A DNA stretch of 64,000 nt from Fulvivirga marina. Its GTDB lineage: Bacteria > Bacteroidota > Bacteroidia > Cytophagales > Cyclobacteriaceae. The stretch spans positions 124,001 to 188,000 of the forward strand of contig NZ_JAEUGD010000053.1 of the NCBI RefSeq assembly GCF_016775155.1, written 5' to 3'. Below are positions 1 through 14,227 of this stretch, in pieces. The notes beneath the pieces are model-generated. The model was not told where the DNA came from and searched no databases. It saw only the letters and a list, made by a program, of their open reading frames with translations. How positions within the stretch are numbered: the stretch's first letter is position 1; each line of letters starts with the position of its first letter. A program made the translations under genes and the position numbers.

Positions 1-2342
1 TTGAGAGGCATACCATGTCGTAGCACACCACTGATAAGCTTAGCATAGTTCCAGTATTCCTTGTCGAATGTTCTGGAAAGTCCCTCGATAGTAATTCTGT
101 AGCCATCACCATCCACATATTGGAAATCATACCTGTTTTTCCCATTTTTGCCCTTGCCTTTGATCACTTTGCCCTTTTTTACCTTAGACAGGATAGAAAA
201 TGAATTATCAGCACGGCCCGTGAATATCTCATAGGGCTTGTTATTATACAAACCAACTACCGCTACCCACTTTTCATGATTGTTTTTAAACTGTAGTACT
301 GCGGCTTCCAATTCTTTTGGTCTTTTGGGTGGATTAGTTTCCACAAAATCCTGTTTGTCTTTGGAGGTATCACTGACCAGAATGCCTGACCGGCTACCCT
401 CGCGGTAAACCGTGATACCTTTGCAGCCTTGTTTCCAGGCTTCAAGGTAAATCTCAGAGATCATAGATTGTGGAGTGCTTTCCGGCAGGTTGACGGTTAC
501 GCTGATAGAGTGATCAACCCACTTTTGTAGTACACTCTGTAGTTTTACTTTTGAAGTCCATGATATCTGATCACTACTGGCACCTGCGTATGGAGATTTG
601 TTAATGAGTTTGTCAAGATCTTTAGGCTTAAGTTCGCTGATCTCTTCAGCATTAAATCCCTGAGTTTTCAGCCATTTTTTAAAACCATGATGGAATACGG
701 CATACTCTTCGTAGTAATCACCATTATCATCTACAAAATATGGGTGATCATCACTGGCTTTGGCTGCGTTAATTTTCTTTCTTCTTGAATAATATAGCCT
801 GAAAGCAGGCTCTACACCCGAGGTAGTTTGAGTCAACAAGCTTGTGGAACCTGTTGGAGCAATGGTAAGCATAGCAATGTTCCTTCTGCCATGTTCTGTC
901 ATTTCCTTGATCAATTCCGGGTCTATCTGTTTTATTCGATTGATAAAGGGATGGTCGAGCTCTTTTTTAGCATTGTAAACAGGAAATGCTCCTCTTTCTT
1001 TAGCCAGTTTTACTGAGCTTCGGTAGGCTTCCTGCACCAAGGTGCTTTGTATTTTTTCAGCCATTACAATAGAGGCATTAGAACCGTATTGTATGCCTAG
1101 TGAAGCCAACATGTCACCAAGACCGGTTATGCCCAGTCCGGTACGGCGGCCGTTTTTACATTTCTCTCTGATTTTCAGCCATAAATTTTTCTCTGTTAGC
1201 TTATACTGTTCTGGTTCGGGGTCATTGTCAATTTTAGCTATAACTCTGTCAATTTTTTCCAGTTCAAGATCTACCAGGTCATCCATCAGGCGTAAGGCAG
1301 CCTGCACATGTTGCCGGAATAATTCAAAATCAAAGTGGGCTTCTTTGTAAAAAGGTTTGTTTACATAGCCAGCCAGGTTAATCGCCATCAGTCGGCAGCT
1401 ATCATACGGGCAAAGAGGAATCTCACCGCAAGGGTTTGTGGAAACGGTTTCAAAGCCTTCGCCAGCGTAACGGTCAGGCAGAGACTCCCGGGTTACTGTA
1501 TCCCAAAAGATTACCCCTGGTTCAGCAGACTGCCAGGCACCTTCTGTTATTTCTTTCCATATGTCCTGAGCCCGGCTTTTATGGGTAACCTGTGGAGATT
1601 TGCTATGGATAGGGAATTGCTGTTTGAAGGAGCCGTCGTGCTCCACAGCCTGCATAAAAGCGTCGTCAAGCTTTAATGATATATTGGCACCTGTAACAGC
1701 GGTGGTCTCTCTTTTCGCTCTGGCAAAAGCTATGGCCTCCGGGTGTTTTACGGAAAGTGTCAGCATCAGTGCCCCTCTTCTGCCCCCTTGAGCTACTTCA
1801 CGAGTGGAGTTAGAAAACCTGTGCATGAAAGCCACAATGCCGGTTGCGGTAAGAGCAGAATTATTTACAGAACTGCCCTCCGGCCGAATGTGTGACAGAT
1901 CCAGGCCAACACCTCCGCGTCTTTTCATAAGCTGTACCAGTTCTTCATCCATCGTCATTACCGATCCATATGAGTCGGCATCTTGTTCGACTCCTATTAC
2001 AAAACAGTTGGATAATGAAGCATGCTGAAACTCATTGCCAATGCCTGCCATAGGGCCACCTTGTGGTACAATATATTTGAAACCCTTGAGGAGTTCATAG
2101 ATTTCTTCTTCCGACAGAGGCTTAGCGTATTTCTCTTCAACTCTGGCAAACTCGCGGGCAAGTCTGCGATGCATGTCATCAGGAGATTTTTCGTAGTAAT
2201 TCCCCTGACCGTCCTTCAGAGCATATTTACTTGCCCATACTTCTGCGGCTAGCACATCGCCATCAAAGTACTTAATACTGGCCTCTTTTACTTCTTCCTC
2301 GGTAAGTGCTTCTAGCGTTTCTGGTGGTTCGGGTGCTATCAT
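1..2342 (-). CDS. nrdJ: Adenosylcobalamin-dependent (class II) ribonucleotide reductase, C-terminus beyond window
   Basis: Reduces ribonucleotides to deoxyribonucleotides using adenosylcobalamin instead of an oxygen-dependent di-iron radical, so it works with or without oxygen. The reading frame is open from an ATG at 2342 to the left edge (about 780 codons visible). Class II hallmarks are seen: SLSNCFVIG with the N-terminal active-site cysteine (about C113), GGVGLDLSHIRPEGS (about residues 138-152), NPCGEIPL (about 302-309), a GLGITGLGDML stretch and APTGSTSLL. The C-terminal Cys-rich tail lies outside the window. It starts 20 bp after the hemerythrin-like gene and is probably the last gene of the NO-responsive operon promoted from about 3200. 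No B12 riboswitch is seen in front of it, which is expected if it is read from the upstream promoter. Family assignment is firm; the operon link is inference from spacing. Confidence 0.93.
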   Translation of the reverse strand, partial: MIAPEPPETLEALTEEEVKEASIKYFDGDVLAAEVWASKYALKDGQGNYYEKSPDDMHRRLAREFARVEEKYAKPLSEEEIYELLKGFKYIVPQGGPMAGIGNEFQHASLSNCFVIGVEQDADSYGSVMTMDEELVQLMKRRGGVGLDLSHIRPEGSSVNNSALTATGIVAFMHRFSNSTREVAQGGRRGALMLTLSVKHPEAIAFARAKRETTAVTGANISLKLDDAFMQAVEHDGSFKQQFPIHSKSPQVTHKSRAQDIWKEITEGAWQSAEPGVIFWDTVTRESLPDRYAGEGFETVSTNPCGEIPLCPYDSCRLMAINLAGYVNKPFYKEAHFDFELFRQHVQAALRLMDDLVDLELEKIDRVIAKIDNDPEPEQYKLTEKNLWLKIREKCKNGRRTGLGITGLGDMLASLGIQYGSNASIVMAEKIQSTLVQEAYRSSVKLAKERGAFPVYNAKKELDHPFINRIKQIDPELIKEMTEHGRRNIAMLTIAPTGSTSLLTQTTSGVEPAFRLYYSRRKKINAAKASDDHPYFVDDNGDYYEEYAVFHHGFKKWLKTQGFNAEEISELKPKDLDKLINKSPYAGASSDQISWTSKVKLQSVLQKWVDHSISVTVNLPESTPQSMISEIYLEAWKQGCKGITVYREGSRSGILVSDTSKDKQDFVETNPPKRPKELEAAVLQFKNNHEKWVAVVGLYNNKPYEIFTGRADNSFSILSKVKKGKVIKGKGKNGKNRYDFQYVDGDGYRITIEGLSRTFDKEYWNYAKLISGVLRHGMPL

Positions 2343-2362: not shown

Positions 2363-2896
2363 TTACATGGGGTCTAAAGTGGCTTCCATCTCTATGATCT
2401 TGGGGAATAGAATATTATTTTCCAGCAATACCTGCTCGTGCCAATATTTTCTGAATTTCAGTAATTCGATATAAATCTTTTTGAATTGAGCTTCAGCCAG
2501 TTTATCGTTGAAATGCACATGGCTCATGAGTTCGAGTAGCAGGTCGAGCCGTTGTTTTTCAATTTTATGCTCTTTATACATTTCATGTATAGGGTGACAG
2601 GCAGAGTGCAGGCCGGACATTCTAACCCCGCTGCCCTTTTTAAGCTCCAGGCTGTAGCGTGTGACAAAAGGTATAATGACAATAGACTCTTTATGGATAT
2701 GAGCTTCCTGTTTCCAGGCCAAAAACTTAAAGGCTTCATACAGCTCCTGAAGATTGTGCTGGCCTTTATATCTGAACATGAATTGATCAAAGCTGATTTT
2801 GACTTCAGTCAGAATAGCCAATATGGTACAGTAATGTGATTTGATAACAGTTTTGACCAAGAGTTCAGCCGGCCAATCGTAATACTCATCCTTCAT
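2363..2896 (-). CDS. Hemerythrin-like di-iron protein (RIC/YtfE/ScdA C-terminal type)
   Basis: A 177-residue, mainly helical protein with the spaced His/Glu ligands of a hemerythrin-type di-iron four-helix bundle: SHYCT near residue 20, AHIHKES near 71-77, HPIHEMYKEH near 101-110, SHVHFNDKL near 125-133 and WHEQVLLENNILFP near 152-165. Proteins of this type (RIC, YtfE, ScdA) repair Fe-S clusters damaged by nitric oxide or oxidants. The N-terminal ScdA_N (DUF542) domain of full-length RIC proteins is absent, so it is the short form. It lies 39 bp downstream of the DUF2249 gene and 20 bp upstream of the class II ribonucleotide reductase, all on the minus strand, and shares their promoter. Alternative: a simple hemerythrin-domain NO or oxygen sensor. 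Confidence 0.82.
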   Translation of the reverse strand: MKDEYYDWPAELLVKTVIKSHYCTILAILTEVKISFDQFMFRYKGQHNLQELYEAFKFLAWKQEAHIHKESIVIIPFVTRYSLELKKGSGVRMSGLHSACHPIHEMYKEHKIEKQRLDLLLELMSHVHFNDKLAEAQFKKIYIELLKFRKYWHEQVLLENNILFPKIIEMEATLDPM

Positions 2897-2935: not shown

Positions 2936-3180
2936 TTAGACCTTTTCCTGTTTTACTTTTGCTACATGTACCTTCTGGGTTTCTGATTCCTTCATACAGT
3001 AATTCCACTCAAACTGTCTGCGGTGCTCTGTCTGAAATTGATAATAAAGAGGGGTGTGGGCATGATCATTCACCCGCTTGAAAATTTCGTCAGGTTTAAT
3101 TTCATCAAAGTGATTGAATATAGCTGGGGACCTTTGTTTGGAGGGGAAAAACAAAAATCAAAAGTATGTTGAGTTTCCAT
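2936..3180 (-). pseudogene. DUF2249 family protein, disrupted by a frameshift
   Basis: The downstream frame encodes PAIFNHFDEIKPDEIF, then NDHAHTPLYYQF and QFEWNYC, the core of DUF2249 (usual pattern: IF..FD.L..GE.., NDHDPxPLYYQ, F.W.Y). That frame has no ATG and is closed by a TGA just upstream. The proper start, ATG at 3180 encoding METQHTFDFCFSPPNK, is in the neighbouring frame. Joining both after the proline pair (about 3133-3141, in the run CCAAACAAAGG, apparently one base short) restores the family N-terminus (F-D-x-R-x-x-P-P). DUF2249 proteins often sit with RIC-type and NO-reductase genes in Bacteroidota. It is the first gene after the palindrome-bearing promoter at 3200-3244. A sequencing error is possible; otherwise the gene is freshly inactivated. 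Confidence 0.7.
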
Positions 3181-3199: not shown

Positions 3200-3244
3200 T
3201 AAATATAGATGCAGACTATGACCAATTTTATGACTATGATCATG
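3200..3244 (-). promoter_or_regulatory. Crp/Fnr-type operator and -7 element for the DUF2249-hemerythrin-nrdJ operon
   Basis: An imperfect palindrome TTATGAC-TATG-ATCATG (3228-3244, centre 3236.5) lies 29.5 bp upstream of TATATTTA (3200-3207, minus strand), one base from the Bacteroidota -7 consensus TAnnTTTG. The same layout with the same spacing recurs at 4849-4894 and 8443-8488. A centre near -41.5 is where Crp/Fnr-family activators contact RNA polymerase (class II). The binding protein is not known from this window. Confidence 0.6.
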
Positions 3245-3413
3245 TTTGAAAAGGTTATTTATTTGGTTTTTTTAGTTGCGTATTTCGCTGATTAACAGTA
3301 TGGAAATCCCAGCCCTTTTTTACGGAGCGGAAATTGTTTCTCAGCTTGTTGCTGTCATTAAGAGAGGGAGTGATTAATTGATTTCGTCTTTGAGAGGAGG
3401 TAGGACAAAGCAA

Positions 3414-4637
3414 TTATCCTGTCACTTCTGACTGCTGACCCATGACCATCAAACACCCAACCGGCATCAACAACGATACCCCAAAAAGCCCTTCAAAGTA
3501 AAATGGCAGCATACCAAAACCAGTCATGAACAGGGTGGGTTGAAGGAAGACTATAGTTTCACTTAAAATAAAACCAGTCAGGAATAGTGCAATACCTGTT
3601 TTAGGTATTCGTGCGTTTATATTTATCAGTTCGGTATGATTAAACCAACCCATGAGAAAGGTGGAGACAAAGCCCAGAAAAACGATGTGTAAATAGCCTA
3701 TGGTAAAATTGCGCACCGAATAGGCCAGATCAGCAACGGCAGGAAAGGCTGATACAAACTGTAAGAAAAGCTTAATAAGTAGAGCTATAAAAGCAAACCA
3801 GAGCAAATACCTTGTCCATGGCTTTAATGAAGTCAATAAATTGTTTTTAGTACCCCTTAGGAGTAATACAAGATAGATTAAAGCTACAACCTGAAGAAAA
3901 GCAGATAAAAAACCGATAATATATACCCATACGCCCGGCTGAGTCCATAGGGTAGAAAGGCTGTACGCAGGTATGCAGGCCATTGCCATAAGCCATAAGA
4001 AACAGCGGGCATGATGCCGGTTGAAAGCAATGTTGTTCACTTCGAGAATTCTGAAAAATAGCCCAAATACTGCGAAACTAAACCATCCATCGTATTGAAA
4101 GTGAAGGTAAAAGTATATGGCTAACTGGTAGAGGTTTGAGCCGCCAAGCCCTTTAGCCATTATGGCACCAAGCGCAAATGGCCCGATGGATGATAGTACC
4201 ATAAACAACAGACCCCATCGAACGAAAAGGAGCGAAAATGGAATACTGGTAAGTGTTTTTGTGTCTCTGAAAAATTTACCGGCAAACCAGTAAGACAGAA
4301 GAATATGAAGCGTGGAGAATGTGATAGAGGCTGCTGCATATCCCTGAAGAGGAAATGTGATCAGCATGCCAATAACAGCAATCTGAAGGAGCCAGAATAA
4401 AACTTTGTACGATTTGGTCTTTTTAGGAATATAGGTAAATATCAAGGCTGCAAAAAGAGCATTGAATATCCACCCGAGAAAGGCCAGATGAGAGTGACCA
4501 TGCAGAAAATACTTAAAATTGATGCCTGTTATTGGAAAGAAGAAAATAAGGCGGAGAAGACACCCAAGAAACCCGACCAGAATAAGGTAAATAAAAGATA
4601 AGCGAGCCCAGTATTTAATCGTTCGGATGTTGTTCAT
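3414..4637 (-). CDS. Polytopic membrane protein resembling heme-copper oxidase subunit I / NnrS-like, NO regulon
   Basis: A 407-residue protein with about twelve hydrophobic segments. Conserved-looking histidines lie in or next to membrane helices: KYFLHGHSHLAFLGW near residue 42-56, YFYLHFQYDGWF near 180-190 and GYLHIVFLGF near 315-325, plus FNHTEL. His pairs in helices are typical of heme-binding respiratory proteins such as heme-copper oxidase subunit I and NnrS. I chose ATG 4637 (MNNIRTIKYW) because it overlaps the TGA of the preceding 58-residue gene as ATGA; an in-frame extension to 4745 would only read through that gene. Both follow the operator at 4877-4894 and sit between the NO reductase and Fe-S repair genes, so a role in NO or low-oxygen metabolism is inferred. 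Substrate and cofactor are unknown. Confidence 0.7.
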   Translation of the reverse strand: MNNIRTIKYWARLSFIYLILVGFLGCLLRLIFFFPITGINFKYFLHGHSHLAFLGWIFNALFAALIFTYIPKKTKSYKVLFWLLQIAVIGMLITFPLQGYAAASITFSTLHILLSYWFAGKFFRDTKTLTSIPFSLLFVRWGLLFMVLSSIGPFALGAIMAKGLGGSNLYQLAIYFYLHFQYDGWFSFAVFGLFFRILEVNNIAFNRHHARCFLWLMAMACIPAYSLSTLWTQPGVWVYIIGFLSAFLQVVALIYLVLLLRGTKNNLLTSLKPWTRYLLWFAFIALLIKLFLQFVSAFPAVADLAYSVRNFTIGYLHIVFLGFVSTFLMGWFNHTELININARIPKTGIALFLTGFILSETIVFLQPTLFMTGFGMLPFYFEGLFGVSLLMPVGCLMVMGQQSEVTG

Positions 4638-4810
4638 ATAGCCAGTTTGCCCTTTCTTTTCCCTAAATAAATCAAAACGGCCATAGAAATGAAAAATGTT
4701 AGCATGGATAGGAAGGCCCACCCTAAGCGTATCCATCCTGCGCATATACCTAAAAGAATGCTCAACAGGATCAGGGGCATGATGACGGGAAGAATTTTTC
4801 GGTTTTGCAT
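4634..4810 (-). CDS. Small two-helix membrane protein (58 aa), partner of the heme-copper-like protein
   Basis: The peptide starts MQNRKILPVIMPLILL and ends GKRKGKLAI. It has two hydrophobic segments (about residues 8-25 and 29-49) and a basic C-terminus, and contains no cysteine pair or histidine. Its stop codon overlaps the start of the next gene (ATGA at 4634-4637), which argues for translational coupling. An AAGAGG Shine-Dalgarno-like sequence lies about 9 bp upstream of the ATG, and the operator/-7 element at 4849-4894 is just upstream. It is probably a small subunit or assembly partner of the polytopic protein encoded next. No family was recognised. Confidence 0.72.
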   Translation of the reverse strand: MQNRKILPVIMPLILLSILLGICAGWIRLGWAFLSMLTFFISMAVLIYLGKRKGKLAI

Positions 4811-4848
4811 ATCTGGTACCTCTTAAATGTTAGTCTGGCTGTACTATG

Positions 4849-4894
4849 CAAAAGTAGGTCAGGCGTGCTAAGACTTTTATGACCTCAGTCATAG
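4849..4894 (-). promoter_or_regulatory. Crp/Fnr-type operator and -7 element for the small-protein/heme-copper-like operon
   Basis: TATGAC-CTCA-GTCATA (4878-4893) is a perfect palindrome with 6-bp arms. TACTTTTG on the minus strand (4849-4856) matches TAnnTTTG exactly. The palindrome centre (4885.5) is 29.5 bp from the upstream end of the -7 element, identical to the two sister promoters. No TTTG -33 element is obvious, as expected for an activator-dependent promoter. Confidence 0.68.
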
Positions 4895-5055
4895 CTGGCG
4901 TTGATTATAGTGAGGTAAGTTCAATTCTAAGAACTAATATTCTTTTAATATTCAATTGGTTTTGAAACATACTACACCACAACTTTTAAATTAAAATGAC
5001 CTATCTTACCAAGCGCTGACCTCAATTTGGATATCGGTGTTTAAAGACATAGCCA

Positions 5056-5793
5056 ATGATTGATCTGGATAAAATATCGACACTTCCGCCCGAAGGTGCG
5101 GTTAAGAAAGAGTACAAACAGCACCTATCCGACCTGCGCAATGAATTGTTTCAATTACAAAATAAGCTTTATGCAGATGGACGCTACAGTGTGCTTATTG
5201 TCTTGCAAGGCCTGGATACTTCCGGTAAGGACGGGACCATCCGCCATGCATTTAGTGGTATGAATCCTCAAGGGGTGCAGGTGACTTCATTTAAAAAGCC
5301 TACTGAAGACGAAATGAAGCATGACTTCCTATGGCGTGTTTATCCCCATTTCCCGGCCAAGGGTATGATACGGGTCTTTAACCGATCATATTATGAAGAT
5401 ATATTGGTACCTACCGTGCATGAGAGTTTGGGAAAGGAGATTTTACAGCATCGTGCTAACCTGATCAATGAGCTGGAGCAACATCTGACGGCCAGCCATA
5501 CTTTGATCCTGAAGTATTATCTGCATATATCCGTAGAAGAGCAAAAAGATCGCTTAGAAGACCGAAAGACTAAGCCCCATAAACGATGGAAATATGCTGA
5601 AGAAGATGAGAAAATACCGCTACAATGGGATGACTATAAGAGTGCCTACCATACTGTACTAAACAAATGCAATGTGATCCCCTGGCATATTATTCCCTCT
5701 GATAAGCGCTGGTTCCGCAACTACACCGCTGCCCAAATTTTGTTGGAAGAACTTCAAAAGCTGGACTTGCGGTATCCCGATATGGAGAAGTGA
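5056..5793 (+). CDS. ppk2: Polyphosphate kinase 2 family protein (polyphosphate:nucleotide phosphotransferase)
   Basis: Transfers phosphate between polyphosphate and nucleotides in the cytoplasm. The 245-residue length equals a single PPK2 domain. Walker A-like GLDTSGKDG spans residues 52-60, followed by the lid/Walker B region with VFNRSYYEDIL (107-117), and the family-typical RWKYAEEDEKIPLQWDDY and ending WFRNYTAAQILLEELQKL. Which PPK2 class it belongs to, and so whether it makes NTP from NDP or NDP from NMP, cannot be settled by eye. It is transcribed away from the NO-regulon gene at 4810 and has an inverted repeat about 40 bp after its stop. No sign of damage. Confidence 0.93.
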   Translation: MIDLDKISTLPPEGAVKKEYKQHLSDLRNELFQLQNKLYADGRYSVLIVLQGLDTSGKDGTIRHAFSGMNPQGVQVTSFKKPTEDEMKHDFLWRVYPHFPAKGMIRVFNRSYYEDILVPTVHESLGKEILQHRANLINELEQHLTASHTLILKYYLHISVEEQKDRLEDRKTKPHKRWKYAEEDEKIPLQWDDYKSAYHTVLNKCNVIPWHIIPSDKRWFRNYTAAQILLEELQKLDLRYPDMEK

Positions 5794-5830
5794 TGTGTGC
5801 TATTGTCATTTAGAGGGACGAATTATATGA

Positions 5831-5851
5831 AGGGTTGAATGCTACAACCCT
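5831..5851 (+). terminator. Possible terminator hairpin after ppk2
   Basis: AGGGTTG (5831-5837) pairs perfectly with CAACCCT (5845-5851) across a 7-nt loop, about 38 bp after the ppk2 stop. The downstream tract is only moderately T-rich, so termination strength is uncertain. Confidence 0.4.
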
Positions 5852-6070
5852 GATTACTCTTTCACTTTCCATCTTCAATCATTAGCTCTTCTTTTAGTGA
5901 ATTACTGCATTCATTTACTGGAATTTCTTTTAAGATACCAAGAAGTCCGTTTTGATAATTATAGAGTTCAGCGATTCCTTTGACAGGTATCTTAATTTCT
6001 AATTCGTTTTTATGATGATTACAGCAATGTTACCGGAAGAGATATTTCAGTAATATGATCATTGTTGAAT

Positions 6071-6105
6071 GAGCAGGTGACCTTGATCATGAGAGTCACC
6101 TGCTC
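6071..6105. repeat. 11-bp inverted repeat downstream of the NO reductase gene
   Basis: GAGCAGGTGAC (6071-6081) and GTCACCTGCTC (6095-6105) are perfect complements around a 13-nt spacer that itself contains TGATCA. It lies 35 bp past the norB stop codon. A terminator or mRNA-stabilising 3' hairpin is most likely, but there is no T-tract on either side, so an operator cannot be excluded. Confidence 0.5.
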
Positions 6106-6139
6106 AGATAATTAATCCTGTAGCACAGGCTCACTTTCT

Positions 6140-8419
6140 TCAACTTTCGGTTGATCTTCCCGGGGAGAGATTTATTACTCCTTTTACAGACCAGCCCATT
6201 TTTAGGCCTATTACAAACCATCCTAGGGCAATAACACCAACTGCGAAAACCGTATCTCCAATTACCCTCAGCCATCTCAGTGTATCCATGCCTGGCTCCT
6301 GCATAAATTCTGCCGAGCGGGCATACCAGAACCCATATTTTACACTAGCCCATGTTTGAGCCAGACCGATAGGTAGCACACTTATCAGTACCATTAGTGC
6401 CAGACCAATATTGATAGACCAAAATGCTAATTTAATGGTGCTGTCTTTCCATATATTTCTGGATGACAGTCCCTTCAGGGCGAAGAGCATCAGCCCTATA
6501 CCGAGCATACCATACACCCCAAACAGCGCGGTATGTCCGTGGACGGGAGTGGTGTTGAGGCCTTGCATGTAATATAAAGCTATAGGTGGGTTGATCACAA
6601 AACCGAAGATGCCTGCGCCTACCAGATTCCAGAAAGCAACGGCTATAAAACAGTAGATCGGCCATTTGTACGCTTTAATCCATTTCGTAGCCCGACTAAT
6701 GGTGAGGTTATGATAAGCTTCAAAACCTATGAGTACCAACGGTACCACTTCCAGAGCACTAAATGTAGCTCCTAAAGCCAACACTGCTGTAGGTGTACCA
6801 CTGAAGTACAAGTGGTGAAAAGTTCCTATGATACCTCCGAAAAGAAAGATGATGGTGGAGAATAAGACGGTGGCAGTGGCTATACCTACCCTCAAGAGTC
6901 CCATACGTACAAACAGGAATGCAATCACTACAGTAGCAAATACTTCAAAGAAACCTTCCACCCAAAGGTGAACCACCCACCAGCGCCAGTATTCCGCAAT
7001 CGCCAGGTTAGTTTGTCTGCCCCACATCAAACCAGCACCATAAAAGAGCGCAATCGCCGCAGAGGAGATCAGGAACATACCCAGTAAATGCCTGCTTTCT
7101 TTCTGTGTTTTGAATGCAGGCCAAATACCTCTCACCATCAGGAATAACCAAATGAAAAGGCCCGCAAATAAGAATATCTGCCAGAACCTTCCTAGATCGA
7201 CATATTCGTAACCCTGATGGCCAAACCAGAAATTGGTTTCGAAACCAAGCTTTTGCATTACACCATACCATTGCCCGATCATGGAACCTGCAACGATGAT
7301 CAGCAGGCAAATAAACAAGATGTTTACACCCAGCTTCTGATACTTAGGCTCTCTTCCTGATACAGCTGGTGCTATGAACAGACCCGTGGCCAGCCATGAA
7401 GTGGCAATCCAGAAGATCCCCATTTGAACGTGGTAGGTTCTGGTCAGGGAGTAAGGCAGAAAGTCCGCCAGTGGGAAGCCATACATAGCCGTCCCTTCTA
7501 CGCCATAATGTGCCGTTGTAGCACCCAGTATTACTTGGATGATAATCAGGAAAGTCACCACCCAAAAGTACTTGAGAGTGGCTTTCATAGAAGGAGTAGG
7601 CCGAAGCCCCAGCAGTGGATCGTTTTTAGGCAGATTGGCCTTATCAATCTCGTCTTCTTTATTGGCTGCATAATACCACGCCAGCAAACTAATGCCTGCA
7701 AGTAAAACAATTATACTGAACCCTGTCCACAAAATAAGAGAGCTTGTTGGTTTGTTGCCTACAAGGTCTTCTGCAGGCCAGTTGTTGGTGTAAGTAATGT
7801 CTGATCCTGGTCTATTGGTAGTACAGGCCCATGAAGTCCAGAAAAAGAATGTGTTTAACTTTCTCATTCTTTCATGGTCTTTGATGGTATTGGCCGGAAT
7901 AGCATAGTTATCTCTCAACACTTCGTATGTTGGATCATCAGTGAAAAGAGAGGTGTAGTGTTTACTGATTTCAGCAAAAGCCTCAGCCCGCACCGAGGAA
8001 ATGACAAGTTCTCCTGTTGCTTTGTTGTAATTATTAGCTCTGATCTGCTTTTGTAGTCTCGTAGTTAACATGGCCTGATGCTCTTCATCAAGCTGGTCAA
8101 ATGGTTTGCTAAAACCCTTCCGAGACCATGCATTTAATATAAAAACAGCCTCACGGTGAAGCCAGTCAGCAGACCAGTCGGGTGCAACATAAGCGCCATG
8201 TCCCCAGATGGAACCAATCTCCTGCCCACCCATAGATTGCCATACGTTTTGACCATCCCTAATGTCGTTCCCTGTAAACAAGAGAGCACCTGAGCTACTT
8301 GTTACCTTTTCAGGAATGGGGGGAGCTTCACGGTATATCTCTATGCCGTAATATCCCAGAACAGCAAATGAGATTACCATTACCAATATAAATCCTATCC
8401 ATAATTTTCCGTATTTCAT
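6140..8419 (-). CDS. norB: Quinol-dependent nitric oxide reductase (qNor, single subunit)
   Basis: Reduces two NO to N2O at a heme/non-heme-iron centre in the cytoplasmic membrane, using quinol. The 759-residue length fits the fused qNor form. An N-terminal helix is followed by a periplasmic domain (about 36-215) that includes QNVWQSMGGQEIGSIWGHG and lacks a CxxCH heme-c motif, which identifies qNor rather than cNor. About twelve more helices follow. Catalytic-core motifs are visible: HLWVEGFFEVFA near residue 480 (iron-ligand His and conserved Glu) and GTFHHLYFSGTP near 534 (His pair). It is monocistronic and preceded by the best of the three shared Crp/Fnr-type operators. No NO-sensing regulator gene is adjacent. 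With no nitrite or N2O reductase in the window, it could serve denitrification or just NO detoxification. Confidence 0.95.
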   Translation of the reverse strand: MKYGKLWIGFILVMVISFAVLGYYGIEIYREAPPIPEKVTSSSGALLFTGNDIRDGQNVWQSMGGQEIGSIWGHGAYVAPDWSADWLHREAVFILNAWSRKGFSKPFDQLDEEHQAMLTTRLQKQIRANNYNKATGELVISSVRAEAFAEISKHYTSLFTDDPTYEVLRDNYAIPANTIKDHERMRKLNTFFFWTSWACTTNRPGSDITYTNNWPAEDLVGNKPTSSLILWTGFSIIVLLAGISLLAWYYAANKEDEIDKANLPKNDPLLGLRPTPSMKATLKYFWVVTFLIIIQVILGATTAHYGVEGTAMYGFPLADFLPYSLTRTYHVQMGIFWIATSWLATGLFIAPAVSGREPKYQKLGVNILFICLLIIVAGSMIGQWYGVMQKLGFETNFWFGHQGYEYVDLGRFWQIFLFAGLFIWLFLMVRGIWPAFKTQKESRHLLGMFLISSAAIALFYGAGLMWGRQTNLAIAEYWRWWVVHLWVEGFFEVFATVVIAFLFVRMGLLRVGIATATVLFSTIIFLFGGIIGTFHHLYFSGTPTAVLALGATFSALEVVPLVLIGFEAYHNLTISRATKWIKAYKWPIYCFIAVAFWNLVGAGIFGFVINPPIALYYMQGLNTTPVHGHTALFGVYGMLGIGLMLFALKGLSSRNIWKDSTIKLAFWSINIGLALMVLISVLPIGLAQTWASVKYGFWYARSAEFMQEPGMDTLRWLRVIGDTVFAVGVIALGWFVIGLKMGWSVKGVINLSPGRSTES

Positions 8420-8442
8420 AGTTAGTTTGATTAAGTCTAGCT

Positions 8443-8488
8443 CAAAATTAGATTATGGGTAGTGCGAGCTTTATGATTCTGATCATAA
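8443..8488 (-). promoter_or_regulatory. Crp/Fnr-type operator and -7 element for norB
   Basis: TTATGAT-TCTG-ATCATAA (8471-8488) is a perfect palindrome with 7-bp arms. TAATTTTG on the minus strand (8443-8450) is a perfect TAnnTTTG. The centre-to-element distance is 29.5 bp, as at the other two promoters. The operator replaces the usual TTTG -33 element. The start codon at 8419 gives a short leader. Confidence 0.72.
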
Positions 8489-8653: not shown

Positions 8654-10927
8654 ATGAAAGATAACTTGTCAGGACAGTCAAATGTCGATGGAAACAGACT
8701 CATTCAGAATAAAAACAGCCTTGATAGAGGCGCTCTTAATAAGAATTTTGATAATAGTCTGATTCAGAAGAAGGAGCAATCAGGTAATAGAGGGGGTGGT
8801 ATTCAAAAAACACAAAATAATACCGGTTTGCCAGATACCCTAAAGCAGGGAGTGGAGAGCCTTTCAGGGCTTTCTATGGATGATGTGAAGGTTCATTACA
8901 ATTCCTCCAAACCTGCTGGCCTTGGAGCATTAGCATATGCTCAGGGCACTGATATTCATATCAGTCCTGGACAGGAAAAACACCTGCCTCATGAAGCCTG
9001 GCATGTTGTACAGCAAAAGCAAGGAGAGGTGAAGCCAACCGTGCAGATGAAGGGCGGGGTTGCTGTAAATGATGCCGCTGATCTTGAAAACGAAGCCGAT
9101 ATCATGGGAAGTAAGGCGAATGGTCTGGTGACGCCAACTTCTGTTGGGGTACAGGCTCCTGGTACTCATGGATCCATTGTTGCTAACGATGTGGTTCAGT
9201 TGAACAGGGATGAAAATAAGGAACACTATAGTAAACTTCTATTAAAGTTTGGAGCAATAAAATCGGCCTATGCAGAGAAGCGGGCCGAGGCCGGGTGGCT
9301 ACTAAATAATGAAAGAGTAAAGGAAGGGATTGAGGAAAAGCAAAGGTGGTATTTGCGTAATAGACTGGAGCACCTCTTACCAGAATTAGATAAGGTGCAA
9401 GATCTTACGTTTGATGAAAATTTTAGTAATGGAAAATATAAAAAACTTAAGTATGCCTGTAATAGGTTGGGTGGTGATGATTTGAAACTCCTGACTCAGA
9501 CTATTACAGAGCTGAAAAAGTTACACTATGAATTTTCAGGGAAACATGGGGAAAGAAAAATTATTAATCAGCCAGGATATGCTACCGGTGATGTGTTTGG
9601 TATAGCTGCATCACTCATTGACGATCCTAACCTTGATATTGTAATTAGCAGAGGTGCGGAAAAAGGAACAGCTGGCTATGACCCTACAGACAAGGCCGAT
9701 GCGCTGGTTAAATTTTATACTGATTCAGGTATAGAACCATGGCGTATACATATGGCACAAGTTTCTGACTTGAGAGATGAAGGAGCCAAGGCTATGAAAG
9801 GCAAGACCCGGAGTATCCAAAAAGGGTTTGATCCGAAATTGTCAAATAGGGCAATAGATAATAATATGACTTTTACGGTGAGTGGAGGTACGGATTATGT
9901 AGCAACTCATTGGAGTGATGAAATGCGGAGCAAAGTTAGAAATGCCTGGGATGTTAACGATTCAAAAGACAAAGAGATTCAAGATTGGCTTCGATATAAA
10001 AACGTACCGGTCAGTGGCAAAAACGTAGCAATATTATGGTCACGTTTTAGCGGAAAGAAAGGAGACATCCACCTGGAGCATGATACTAGCTACAAGGGTA
10101 TGGAGCAAATAGTGATAATGGCCAAGGAAAAATATGCAGCTGTTATAATTGCCGGAGACCCTTATGCAACTCCTGATAAGGTAGGTAAGTTTACGCAAAT
10201 TGCCCGCAAAGCGGGGCTTAATGTCTTTGACCTGACGGGTTTTTGGGAGCATAAAAATGATTTACTGAAAGCTTGGGGAGGTGACACGCGCTTTGGGCAA
10301 TTCAAATTATATGATTATCTCGACAGGCACTTCGAAGAATTAAAACATTTGGGATTTAGAAGTGGAAACCTGGAGGCAATGGCGATGCTTGGTCATCAGG
10401 TAAGGTATATGGAAGAACCTGATAGTAAAGGAGGGGAGAGAATGGAAAAGTGGCACGAAAAAGAAGGAGGAAAAACAGCCATGGGAGGGGTGGCAACAGG
10501 TTATGAACGTCTCATGGTCGATAAACCACCAACAAGGTCAGGCCAGTTTTTGAGGGCATTTCAAGGTGAGTTTGGGGATAGACCGGCATGGGCACCCGGT
10601 AGAGATCCGCAAAGAGTAAAGCCAGATCAAATTTATTCATACGAAAGTGGCTTTAACGAAAGAGATCTTACTAAAATAGGAAGCTATCTGGGTGTTGAAA
10701 GGCCTGGCCAAATAATGCGCGAACCAGCGTCCTTTTCACCGTTTGTCAACTTAACCACTTTGGATTTGACAGGAATGGAAATATCTTCTGATTTAGTCCG
10801 TAAACTCATTAGTTATATTGTAGCGGACTTGTTGCCGAGCCTTACCCGTTTGGACATCAGTGAGAGCCATAGCGAAACTGTGGAGGCATTTGGGGATTTG
10901 AAAAAAGTACAGGTTAATTATAGATAA
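8654..10927 (+). CDS. DUF4157-domain protein, putative eCIS-type toxin/effector
   Basis: 757 residues with no signal peptide. Residues 1-55 are low-complexity and Asn/Gln/Lys-rich. Residues about 57-155 are a DUF4157 domain: LPDTLKQGVESLSGLSMDD, then GTDIHISPGQEKHLP, the zinc-protease-like HEAWH (113-117) and LENEADIMG. DUF4157 is the domain shared by cargo of extracellular contractile injection systems and other polymorphic toxins. The remaining about 570 residues are unrecognised. They include hydrophobic strands typical of a Rossmann-like fold (VAILWSRF, YAAVIIAGDP, LNVFDLTGFW) and FRSGNLEAMAMLGHQVRYMEE, which could suit a GT-B-like transferase, though this is a guess. The last 60 residues contain two leucine-rich-repeat-like units (LTTLDLTGMEI, LTRLDISES). 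No injection-system or immunity genes are nearby. Confidence 0.8.
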   Translation: MKDNLSGQSNVDGNRLIQNKNSLDRGALNKNFDNSLIQKKEQSGNRGGGIQKTQNNTGLPDTLKQGVESLSGLSMDDVKVHYNSSKPAGLGALAYAQGTDIHISPGQEKHLPHEAWHVVQQKQGEVKPTVQMKGGVAVNDAADLENEADIMGSKANGLVTPTSVGVQAPGTHGSIVANDVVQLNRDENKEHYSKLLLKFGAIKSAYAEKRAEAGWLLNNERVKEGIEEKQRWYLRNRLEHLLPELDKVQDLTFDENFSNGKYKKLKYACNRLGGDDLKLLTQTITELKKLHYEFSGKHGERKIINQPGYATGDVFGIAASLIDDPNLDIVISRGAEKGTAGYDPTDKADALVKFYTDSGIEPWRIHMAQVSDLRDEGAKAMKGKTRSIQKGFDPKLSNRAIDNNMTFTVSGGTDYVATHWSDEMRSKVRNAWDVNDSKDKEIQDWLRYKNVPVSGKNVAILWSRFSGKKGDIHLEHDTSYKGMEQIVIMAKEKYAAVIIAGDPYATPDKVGKFTQIARKAGLNVFDLTGFWEHKNDLLKAWGGDTRFGQFKLYDYLDRHFEELKHLGFRSGNLEAMAMLGHQVRYMEEPDSKGGERMEKWHEKEGGKTAMGGVATGYERLMVDKPPTRSGQFLRAFQGEFGDRPAWAPGRDPQRVKPDQIYSYESGFNERDLTKIGSYLGVERPGQIMREPASFSPFVNLTTLDLTGMEISSDLVRKLISYIVADLLPSLTRLDISESHSETVEAFGDLKKVQVNYR

Positions 10928-11728: not shown

Positions 11729-14227
11729 ATGTCAGATCAAATGGAATCTATTAAGGATTTATTTGATGAACATGATGTCCTTCATAAACTTAAGCATTAC
11801 CTGCCGGCGCAGGCATCGCTGAAGGATTTCGTTCATCATAATACATTACATGCTTTTCAGCATTTGAAATTTCATGAAGCCCTGCACCAGGCTTCTCAAA
11901 TATTTGGGTATAAAACTTATTTATCTCTGGCTGAATTCAGAGCACTTTTTCAGGAAGGAAAAATCCGGGAGGATGTTCTTGATAACGTGATTCAGGAGAA
12001 AAAGGGAGAAAGCGAACTCTCCGTCTGGAAGGAGAGACTTCTTCAACACAACTACAGCGCAACAGCTACATCAAGAGTAGGTCGGCTGAGAGTTTTTTGG
12101 AAAGAAAAATATAAGATCAATCTTGATAAGATTGTACATCCATTTCTATTCAAATTGCTTTCGGCATACCTTGATCAGGGTATTTCCATATGGGCATTTC
12201 CGGTTGATAACAAGGATTTCCTGAACTCTATCAGAGAAATGGAGCAAAATGAACTGATCAGTATTTTTAAAACCTCCAGGCCAAGAAAACTCCTTATGGA
12301 GGGGCAATGCTCTCTTAAAAGTCTGTTGAAAATACTGGTGGGTGATGAGGAATTGTTTGAGCAATACCTTTTTGACCAACAGTTCTCTCATCCTGGCTGG
12401 GCAGGTATGGTTTCGGTTATAGAGCATCAGCCGGAGACATTGCTAGACCGCAGGACGATAACTTTACATGATCTCATATACCTGGAACTACTGCTTGAAA
12501 TAGATGCTCTGGATCATAAATTTGGTCAGGAGTGGGAACCAATAGGTTCCAAAGTTGCAGCTTTCCCTGATCCATTGTTTCAGGTAGGGGCTATAAATGA
12601 GCTGGAAGAGGTACTGATCCTTTGGCAAGAAGCGTTTGAGTGGAGCTACTACGACGATGTGCTTAAAGGAGTGTCGCCATCTCCTGCCAGCGAGAATGAC
12701 CAAAAGAAAAGTTTTCAGGCTCTTTTTTGCATCGATGACAGAGAGTACTCTCTGAGGAGATATATAGAGAGTGTTGATAATCAGTCCGATACTTTTGGTA
12801 CACCGGGCTTTTTTGGGGTGGAGTTCTTTTTTCAGCCAGAGCATAGTAAATTCTATACTAAGGCATGCCCTGCGCCCGTTACGCCCAAGTATTTGATCAG
12901 GGAAGAGGCCAGGCGAAATAGCAGACAAAAAGATCCTCATTATACGAAGCGATCTCACCTGCCTTTCCAAGGGTGGTTAATTACACAGACGCTTGGTTTT
13001 TGGTCTGCATTAAAGTTGTTTTTGAACATCTTCAAACCGTCTATAAGTCCGGCTACATCTTATTCGTTTCAACATATGGATAAGCACTCTCGCCTTTCTA
13101 TCGAGAATGAAGGGGAGCAGGTGGATGGTATGCAGGTAGGCTTTACGGTAGAGGAGATGGCAGAGCGTGTAGGCAACACTTTGCGTAGCATCGGACTCGT
13201 TAAGGATTTTGCACCACTTATCTATGTAGTAGGTCATGGAGCAAGCTCTGTTAATAACACTCATTATGCGGGATACGACTGTGGTGCGTGCTGTGGCAGG
13301 CCGGGAGCTGTTAATGCCAGGGTGTTCTCCTATATGGCTAATCTAACAGCTGTGAGGGAGCAGCTGAGAAAAGATGGGCTGGATATTCCGGAAGACGTGG
13401 TTTTTGTTGGAGCAATGCATGATACCACCCGAGATGAGATTGAGTTTTATGACGAAGAAGTACTCACTTCCTCTCAGGAGGTCAGCCACCAGCATAACCA
13501 GGTGGTTTTTGAGAAAGCCCTGGCCCTGAATGCCAAAGAGCGTTCTCGAAGATTTGATACGGTCAATACTCAAAAGCAGTTGGCCAAACTACACAAAGAT
13601 GTAAAAAGGAGGTCAGTCTCCTTATTTGAGCCCAGACCTGAGCTTAATCATGCAACAAATTCATTATGCATTGTGGGCAGAGGATCACTGACTAAAAACG
13701 TGTTCCTGGACAGAAGGCCTTTTATGAATTCGTATGACTACCGCATCGACCCTGAAGGTAAATACCTGCTCACAATACTCAACGCAGCAGCGCCTGTATG
13801 TGGGGGTATTAATCTTGAATATTACTTCTCAAGAGTAGATAATGAAAAACTGGGAGCGGGTACCAAGTTACCTCATAATGTTATAGGCTTGTTTGCCGTA
13901 GCCAATGGGGTAGATGGAGACCTTCGGCCCGGTTTGCCCAGCCAAATGATAGAAGTTCATGATCCCATAAGACTGATGTTCGTAGTGGAACATTACCCCG
14001 ATGTAGTATTGAAAACAATACAGGCTAATCCTGCTACTTACGAATGGTTTATCAATGAATGGGTGTATTTGGTCGTGAAAGATCCTGAAACAGGGCAGAT
14101 ATACAAGTTTTTCAATGGTGAATTTAAAGTATATCAGACTCTGAGATCTACTTTACAGAAGGTAAGCGATGTGAATACCTATATCGAAAATTACCTGGAT
14201 AATATACCTGTTTTAATTACCGATTGA
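11729..14227 (+). CDS. dabA: DabA, DUF2309 subunit of the inorganic-carbon transporter
   Basis: The cytoplasmic, carbonic-anhydrase-like half of the DAB carbon-concentrating complex, thought to convert CO2 to bicarbonate vectorially when coupled to the DabB ion channel. The 832-residue length is typical. The zinc-site residues known for DabA are present with the right spacing: C334 and D336 in FCIDDRE (with R338), H503 in VVGHGASS and C518 in YDCGACCGRPG (His-to-Cys spacing 15). These resemble the C-x-D-x-R and His/Cys ligands of beta-carbonic anhydrases. The gene overlaps dabB by 4 bp (ATTGATTA region at 14224), so the two are translationally linked. Confidence 0.93.
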   Translation: MSDQMESIKDLFDEHDVLHKLKHYLPAQASLKDFVHHNTLHAFQHLKFHEALHQASQIFGYKTYLSLAEFRALFQEGKIREDVLDNVIQEKKGESELSVWKERLLQHNYSATATSRVGRLRVFWKEKYKINLDKIVHPFLFKLLSAYLDQGISIWAFPVDNKDFLNSIREMEQNELISIFKTSRPRKLLMEGQCSLKSLLKILVGDEELFEQYLFDQQFSHPGWAGMVSVIEHQPETLLDRRTITLHDLIYLELLLEIDALDHKFGQEWEPIGSKVAAFPDPLFQVGAINELEEVLILWQEAFEWSYYDDVLKGVSPSPASENDQKKSFQALFCIDDREYSLRRYIESVDNQSDTFGTPGFFGVEFFFQPEHSKFYTKACPAPVTPKYLIREEARRNSRQKDPHYTKRSHLPFQGWLITQTLGFWSALKLFLNIFKPSISPATSYSFQHMDKHSRLSIENEGEQVDGMQVGFTVEEMAERVGNTLRSIGLVKDFAPLIYVVGHGASSVNNTHYAGYDCGACCGRPGAVNARVFSYMANLTAVREQLRKDGLDIPEDVVFVGAMHDTTRDEIEFYDEEVLTSSQEVSHQHNQVVFEKALALNAKERSRRFDTVNTQKQLAKLHKDVKRRSVSLFEPRPELNHATNSLCIVGRGSLTKNVFLDRRPFMNSYDYRIDPEGKYLLTILNAAAPVCGGINLEYYFSRVDNEKLGAGTKLPHNVIGLFAVANGVDGDLRPGLPSQMIEVHDPIRLMFVVEHYPDVVLKTIQANPATYEWFINEWVYLVVKDPETGQIYKFFNGEFKVYQTLRSTLQKVSDVNTYIENYLDNIPVLITD

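Follow-up and report, generated by a model that had tools for sequence, protein, structure and literature searches.

Three promoters in the 64,000-nucleotide stretch of the Fulvivirga marina genome analysed here (the window; C49:124001-188000 of genome G000, unprefixed positions being counted from its start) carry one palindromic operator at one distance from the -7 element. We consider it likely that these three sites are the operators of a DNR-like protein of the Crp/Fnr family, encoded in the same gene cluster and acting as a class II activator with nitric oxide (NO) as the signal. This nearby Crp/Fnr protein probably turns on genes for the handling of NO and nitrous oxide (N2O) in many Bacteroidota. 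The operator, its spacing and conservation, its linkage to the regulator gene and the content of the downstream operons can all be read from the DNA itself.

Operators and -7 elements in the window

All three promoters lie on the minus strand and consist of an 18-bp palindrome, exactly 20 bases, and then the -7 element, the distance from the operator centre to the first T of this element being 29.5 bp in 3/3 cases. Operator 3 (TTATGATCAGAATCATAA, 8488-8471, with the -7 element TAATTTTG at 8450-8443) is situated upstream of the gene for the NO reductase qNor and has no mismatches to the full pattern, TTATGAY-N4-RTCATAA followed by N20 and TAnnTTTG. Operator 2 (CTATGACTGAGGTCATAA, 4894-4877; -7 element TACTTTTG, 4856-4849), with one mismatch, precedes a remnant open reading frame (ORF) and a heme-copper-like gene. 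Both are far above chance. Operator 1 (ACATGATCATAGTCATAA, 3245-3228; -7 element TATATTTA, 3207-3200), upstream of the DUF2249-hemerythrin-NrdJ operon (NrdJ being a class II ribonucleotide reductase, RNR), has one imperfect outer arm and a -7 element ending in A, and hence three mismatches. By its score it is unremarkable, and we regard it as credible because it recurs upstream of the same nrdJ operon in the relatives G001 and G002.

An earlier, sequence-only reading of the window had proposed three such promoters sharing a single operator at identical spacing, and rereading of the sequence bears this out. It had also assigned the operators to the class II activator position. The usual placing of TAnnTTTG in Bacteroidota promoters would indeed put the operator centre near -41.5, and given this geometry the assignment would hold.

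Operator counts in the genome

In the whole genome (6.78 Mb, 69 contigs), the exact palindrome TTATGAY-N4-RTCATAA occurs in two places, upstream of the RIC gene outside the window and upstream of the qNor gene, whereas its reversed control has no matches. The full pattern gives 1, 4, 8 and 21 cumulative matches at up to 0, 1, 2 and 3 mismatches, respectively, one of the 21 being the qNor palindrome on its other strand. The corresponding expectations under an order-3 Markov model trained on 461 kb of this genome are 0, 0.067, 0.47 and 8.8, derived from 0, 1, 7 and 130 matches in 201 million simulated positions, the first three values hence resting on just 0, 1 and 7 simulated matches. The reversed full pattern yields eight matches at up to three mismatches. 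Core matches at up to two mismatches number 73, vs. 29 for the reversed control.

Seven of the eight matches with at most two mismatches are upstream of genes, namely those for qNor (PF22085, PF00115), truncated globin (PF01152), RIC (TIGR03652, above the cut-off), the heme-copper-like operon, hemN (TIGR00538, above the cut-off), an acetyl-CoA-hydrolase-like gene close to FixH/ccoG-like genes and a REC-Crp gene, and an OsmC-like gene within an island of stress-protein genes, the last two being named by eye. The eighth, at C36:11386, is inside an ORF and was taken as chance. The sequence-only reading had grouped the controlled genes into an NO/low-oxygen regulon and had suggested that a genome scan might reveal further members; by gene content this description stands, and the scan adds RIC, the truncated globin and hemN, with nosZ joining in relatives. 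Among the matches with three mismatches, the one at C49:123355 lies upstream of a gene for a 601-aa protein and is credible, since it recurs before the same gene in G001 and G002.

Spacing and conservation in related genomes

The position of the box relative to the -7 element was assessed in 58 genomes (this one and 57 relatives) with a looser pattern, ATGAY-N4-RTCAT followed by a gap of 8 to 38 bases (31 gaps) and TAnnTTTG, in which a gap of 22 is equivalent to the 29.5-bp distance of the three operators in the window. Of 148 matches, 49 had the gap of 22, 14 the gap of 23 and eight the gap of 21, while the remaining 28 gaps averaged 2.75 matches each, although, as the genomes share ancestry, these counts are not independent. 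The reversed control gave 49 matches summed over all gaps. The motif is hence tied to the -7 element, as the sequence-only reading supposed, rather than scattered irrespective of it. A stricter gapped pattern applied to 291 genomes of the order gave results that are in line but few: eight matches, of which five were at N20, two at N19 and one at N34. Near-exact combinations of the box and the -7 element numbered 75, from 34 of the 58 genomes (reversed control, n = 6).

Seven promoters were compared with their counterparts in G001, G002 or G014. The box (93% identical), its outer bases (90%) and the -7 element (93%) are retained, and the linker (44%) and the four-base spacer (48%) are much less so, these identities being biased upwards for the reason given below. 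No TTG is seen in the -33 zone of the 35 promoters with the box, compared to 28 of 211 others (P 0.019). Conservation of both the box and the -7 element, together with the TTG-free -33 zone, fits an activator that replaces the -33 element.

The candidate regulator

The sequence-only reading held that the activator is not next to the promoters. This is not supported, as a gene for a 203-aa Crp/Fnr protein (C49:120816-121427, minus strand) belongs to the same cluster, at a distance of 5.8 kb from operator 1 and 2.6 kb beyond the left edge of the window. It sits behind the 601-aa gene, which has a box promoter, between RIC and the nrdJ operon. HTH_Crp matches number eight in the whole genome, with six over the cut-off, and this is the one that lies in the cluster. 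Both its domains, PF00027 (1.2e-17) and PF13545 (2.2e-7), score above the cut-offs and place it in the Crp/Fnr superfamily. Fourteen of the 58 genomes, counting this one, have an ortholog at E<=1e-20, and together they hold 42 of the 75 near-exact sites, that is, 3.0 vs. 0.75 sites per genome (Mann-Whitney P 3e-5).

A profile (A1) was made from 13 orthologs obtained by whole-protein search; the fourteenth (L069), whose called frame loses the recognition helix, was excluded. The best of 101 matches of this profile to solved proteins is DNR (3dkw, 2.1e-23), followed by a large multidomain protein (9ya0, 3.1e-22), the best CRP scoring 3.9e-20. The recognition helix GLRVETVI is invariant in all 13 proteins and has an isoleucine at the position occupied by serine in DNR (PETFSR) and by glycine in CRP (RETVGR). 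A link between this isoleucine and the ATGAY operator is plausible, because another residue of the same helix is tied to box changes in the available parts of PMC1274295.

Several established types were considered for the regulator and rejected. A [4Fe-4S] sensor of the FNR type does not fit, since the cluster cysteines are lacking: only two of 81 proteins have at least four cysteines, and a single cysteine column exceeds 10%. In CRP, the phosphate of cAMP is held by an Arg-Ser pair, R82 and S83; the regulator has Tyr-Pro in this place, invariant in A1, which speaks against a cAMP-type sensor. The NCBIfam models of Crp/Fnr proteins (FixK, CRP, Fnr, FnrL, PRK13918, PtrA) give at best 42.5 bits at a cut-off of 300. 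Two histidines are conserved in most of the 81 proteins, H107 in 73 and H135 in 79.

The 601-aa gene in front of the regulator gene (C49:121528-123333, minus strand; L028:14529-16334) has a box upstream in this genome and in G001, G002, G013 and G029. Its product is without a match in Pfam and NCBIfam searches, and this conserved protein is a candidate member of the NO regulon. In another, close relative (L102; G014:C1:3575000-3594900) the regulator is kept, with 91% identity, and the adjoining 601-aa gene has shrunk to a 63-aa ORF; no RIC or nrdJ match was seen in that stretch. A protein of about 616 aa is encoded between RIC and the regulator gene at L109:5200-7050 (G029), as well as in L170, L179, L192 and L210, and the gene in this position has a BLAST match to an RNR-like reference in L176 and L192.

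Boxes and genes at the regulator loci

A scan of public genomes, in which GLRVETVI[RK] and SFGEP[PA]L[FI][GA] served as query peptides, gave at least 576 relatives of the regulator, and the loci of the best 80 of these were analysed. Their titles name Flavobacterium, Aquimarina, Pedobacter, Salinimicrobium, Chryseolinea, Spirosoma and others, one being titled Chlorobi. In an unbiased count, all exact 5-mer palindromes with spacers of 0-11 were enumerated in the intergenic DNA of these loci and compared with five Markov shuffles. The palindrome at the top is TATGA-N6-TCATA, present in 65 of 80 loci vs. 1.0 in the shuffles, and the next three are the same box shifted. Exact intergenic boxes (n = 98) occur in 69 loci, 55 of the 98 boxes lying at most 400 bp from the regulator gene. 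TAnnTTTG follows 51 boxes, of which 17 have a gap of 21 (29.5 bp), 29 a gap of 22 (30.5 bp), and five any other gap. Both outer bases, T..A, are retained in 40 of the 41 promoters at the regulator loci that combine the core with the -7 element.

Genes in co-directional runs after the box were named from their BLAST matches in this genome and in related ones, G001 above all; NosZ was assigned by eye and from a match to the Pfam model nos_propeller. Such runs most often contain a globin-like gene (36), the regulator itself (23), RIC (18), NosZ (17) and cytochrome c (17), followed by the heme-copper-like protein (9), qNor (4) and NrdJ (2). Seventy of the 80 loci encode one or more of NosZ, RIC, qNor, the heme-copper-like protein and globin. 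In G001, a single cluster brings together RIC, cytochrome c, a nos operon and the regulator with the 601-aa gene and the nrdJ operon, and in G039 the box is situated between the regulator and nosZ. Many loci with Flavobacteriia titles (e.g. L202:10682-10969) have a box before a gene for a protein of about 90-105 aa and a globin-like gene. In L202, which belongs to a strain of Flavobacterium johnsoniae, the exact box comes after the regulator ortholog, and an ORF of 95 aa and the globin-like gene come next.

Genes downstream of the three promoters

The operon behind operator 1, on the minus strand, codes for a DUF2249 protein (2936..3154, 72 aa as called; PF10006, 4.9e-13, above the cut-off), a hemerythrin-like protein (2363..2896, 177 aa), matched below the gathering score by PF01814 (1.3e-4) and below the cut-off by the RIC model (2.5e-12), and NrdJ, an adenosylcobalamin-dependent RNR of 849 aa (1..2342, extending left of the window to C49:123793; TIGR02504, above the cut-off). 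The gene behind operator 3 (6140..8419, minus strand) encodes a qNor-type NO reductase of 759 aa, with PF22085 (7.2e-74) and PF00115 (8.2e-60) both above the cut-off.

Both gene assignments behind operator 2 need correction. The name "heme-copper-like", given to a 407-aa membrane protein (3414..4637, minus strand), has no backing from profiles: Pfam gave no match from the called start, nor did NCBIfam for the 443-aa frame. The gene is near the regulator gene in 19 of the 80 loci. What had been seen as its small partner, a 58-aa ORF (4634..4810, minus strand), consists of the fused ends of a membrane protein, approximately its first 33 and last 25 residues, as judged by eye from comparison with G001, G002 and G039. 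The intact protein, as called, has 382, 383 and 366 aa in these genomes, respectively, and that of G001 has no match in a Pfam search. On this comparison, the 58-aa ORF is a deletion remnant and no partner subunit.

The adjoining region codes on the plus strand for a 757-aa protein (8654-10927) with what we take to be a DUF4157 (eCIS-associated) domain, and further for an 832-aa protein (11729-14227) that presumably resembles DabA/UPF0753 (inorganic carbon uptake).

Other users of the core box and alternative explanations

Three REC-Crp genes of this genome (C63, C62 and C54) adjoin, or form part of, runs of genes for universal stress proteins and chaperones, as judged by eye; REC-Crp63 comprises REC, cNMP and HTH domains. 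Many ATGAY-N4-RTCAT cores with the same spacing are found in L041, L026 and L042 (C62) and in L043-L045 (C54), and the REC-Crp and stress-protein runs of C62 and C54 are candidates for a separate low-oxygen or stress island. At 27 other REC-Crp loci the top palindrome is ATGAT-N4 (10 of 27 loci vs. 0.4 expected), followed by GATGA-N6 (7), TATGA-N6 being present in five; at 16 loci of the REC-Crp63 type no such box heads the palindrome list. The outer T..A bases are present in two of five promoters with the core and the -7 element in 45 REC-Crp stretches, one of these two being the RIC promoter of a G029 stretch that adjoins a gene of the 203-aa family. Since the same core and spacing also occur around REC-Crp genes in stress-protein islands, the core box alone is, on these comparisons, insufficient to define the NO regulon; the outer flanks may mark it, the numbers being small.

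Several observations weigh against a same-cluster activator. The 44 genomes that lack a regulator match (E<=1e-20) account for 22 of the 49 matches at the exact spacing and 33 of the 75 near-exact sites, hence other proteins use the core and another binder is needed there. Eleven of the 80 regulator loci have no exact intergenic box, and ten have none of the five marker genes. Many related species are present among these loci, which inflates the counts, and, given the peptides used in the search, conservation of the helix is partly built in. The TTG difference in the -33 zone is modest, and the promoter pairs compared base by base were chosen with the pattern itself, at up to five mismatches, which biases the identities upwards.

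Were the sites bound mainly by one of the REC-Crp response regulators (that of C63, C62 or C54), with PAS kinases phosphorylating it, they would serve a low-oxygen or stress response through a two-component system, and the 203-aa protein would have its target elsewhere. The helix of REC-Crp63 (ESVIR) is indeed close to that of the 203-aa protein (ETVIR), the core with the same spacing is found in the C62 island, ATGAT-N4 leads at the 27 other REC-Crp loci, and the acetyl-CoA-hydrolase-like gene of G006 and G007, where no regulator match exists, has a box with this spacing upstream. However, the box does not head the list at the 16 loci of the REC-Crp63 type, and TATGA-N6-TCATA is found at 65 of 80 loci of the 203-aa family vs. 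five of 27 other REC-Crp loci; the difference in the outer bases (40 of 41 vs. two of five) points the same way, weakly, as the promoters are few. We consider the REC-Crp explanation unlikely.

The same regulator and box could also operate as a repressor relieved by NO or low oxygen, as the operator abuts the -33 region and a protein bound there could block RNA polymerase as well. The fixed helical phasing to the -7 element and the TTG-free -33 zone suit an activator better, and the nearest solved relative, DNR, is described as an activator in the accessible text of PMC1274295; repression thus seems quite improbable. As to chance palindromes in AT-rich promoters, operator 1 with its three mismatches would by itself be compatible with them, since 8.8 matches are expected at this level. 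Set against eight matches vs. 0.47 at up to two mismatches, 49 of 148 at one spacing, and 65 of 80 loci vs. 1.0, chance has a negligible probability as the source of all three sites, and for operators 2 and 3 it is refuted by the genome, spacing and unbiased palindrome counts alike.

Proposed mechanism and implications

Returning to the same-cluster activator, we infer binding, activation, the NO signal, heme and autoregulation from the sequence features above, as follows. A regulator family spread through the Bacteroidota, with the recognition helix GLRVETVIR, would bind as a dimer to TTATGAY-N4-RTCATAA centred 29.5-30.5 bp upstream of TAnnTTTG, at about -41.5. A Crp/Fnr protein at that position could reach sigma as well as the C-terminal domain of alpha (class II), and would thereby replace the missing -33 element. 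The most likely signal is NO, with sensing that would require neither an Fe-S cluster nor cAMP and would probably be performed by heme, as in DNR. The genes predicted to be switched on include those for NO removal (qNor, globin and the membrane protein), for Fe-S repair (RIC and the hemerythrin-like protein) and for oxygen-independent replacements (NrdJ and HemN), as well as N2O reductase in relatives. The location of the regulator gene behind the 601-aa-protein gene suggests autoregulation.

A broader scheme, which we offer tentatively and hold to be rather doubtful as a whole, would be a Bacteroidota-wide family of NO-sensing Crp/Fnr proteins with its own ATGAY code, set by the helix isoleucine in place of the DNR serine, that controls N2O reductase and NO defence. 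The REC-Crp proteins would share the core and the -41.5 geometry, and a single promoter architecture of the phylum would thus take in signals from NO and from oxygen or stress.

Bacteroidota that carry N2O reductase clusters of this kind are consumers of N2O. With the regulator, box and spacing defined, the species that turn on the reduction of NO and N2O may become predictable, and class II activation on Bacteroidota promoters would become testable in a laboratory strain. The comparison further supports TAnnTTTG, on evidence other than transcripts, as the -7 element of many Bacteroidota, and it connects the NO response with HemN and with a B12-dependent RNR.

Comparison with known systems

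In titles and abstract openings of the open-access literature, we found no operator or regulator for NO and N2O genes of Bacteroidota except HcpR2 with hcp in Bacteroides and Porphyromonas (PMC1274295, available in part). HcpR1 and HcpR2, the latter found in Bacteroides, resemble the system described here in belonging to the Crp/Fnr family, in their N-oxide related genes and in an N4-spaced palindrome. However, in the available parts of the same paper, their operators are TTGAC-N4-GTCAA (HcpR1) and GTAAC-N4-GTTAC (HcpR2), and the HcpR2 regulon in most Bacteroides is hcp alone. The HcpR2 operator is absent from the 25 top palindromes listed for the 80 regulator loci. NssA, NssB and NssC of Wolinella are likewise Crp/Fnr proteins and are tied to clade II nosZ, but, compared by description alone, they have the consensus TTGA-N6-TCAA and belong to another phylum (PMC11539149, seen as an excerpt).

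The closest parallel is DNR of Pseudomonas, which has the same Crp/Fnr fold, is the nearest solved chain by profile and lacks FNR-type cysteines; like DNR, the regulator proposed here would govern NO reductase genes, in relatives also N2O reductase genes, and, by the position of its operator, would be an activator. The differences are in the recognition helix (VETVIR here vs. PETFSR), in the promoters, which here have TAnnTTTG, and in the operator, ATGAY-N4-RTCAT here and TTGAT-N4-ATCAA for DNR in the excerpts of PMC1274295. On these comparisons, the regulator appears to work like DNR and, by its operator, is no member of the DNR group. Finally, the promoters are similar to class II Crp/Fnr promoters in the operator centre, which would lie near -41.5, and in having no TTG in the -33 zone, but differ from them in the Bacteroidota -7 element and in having two common spacings, 29.5 and 30.5 bp.

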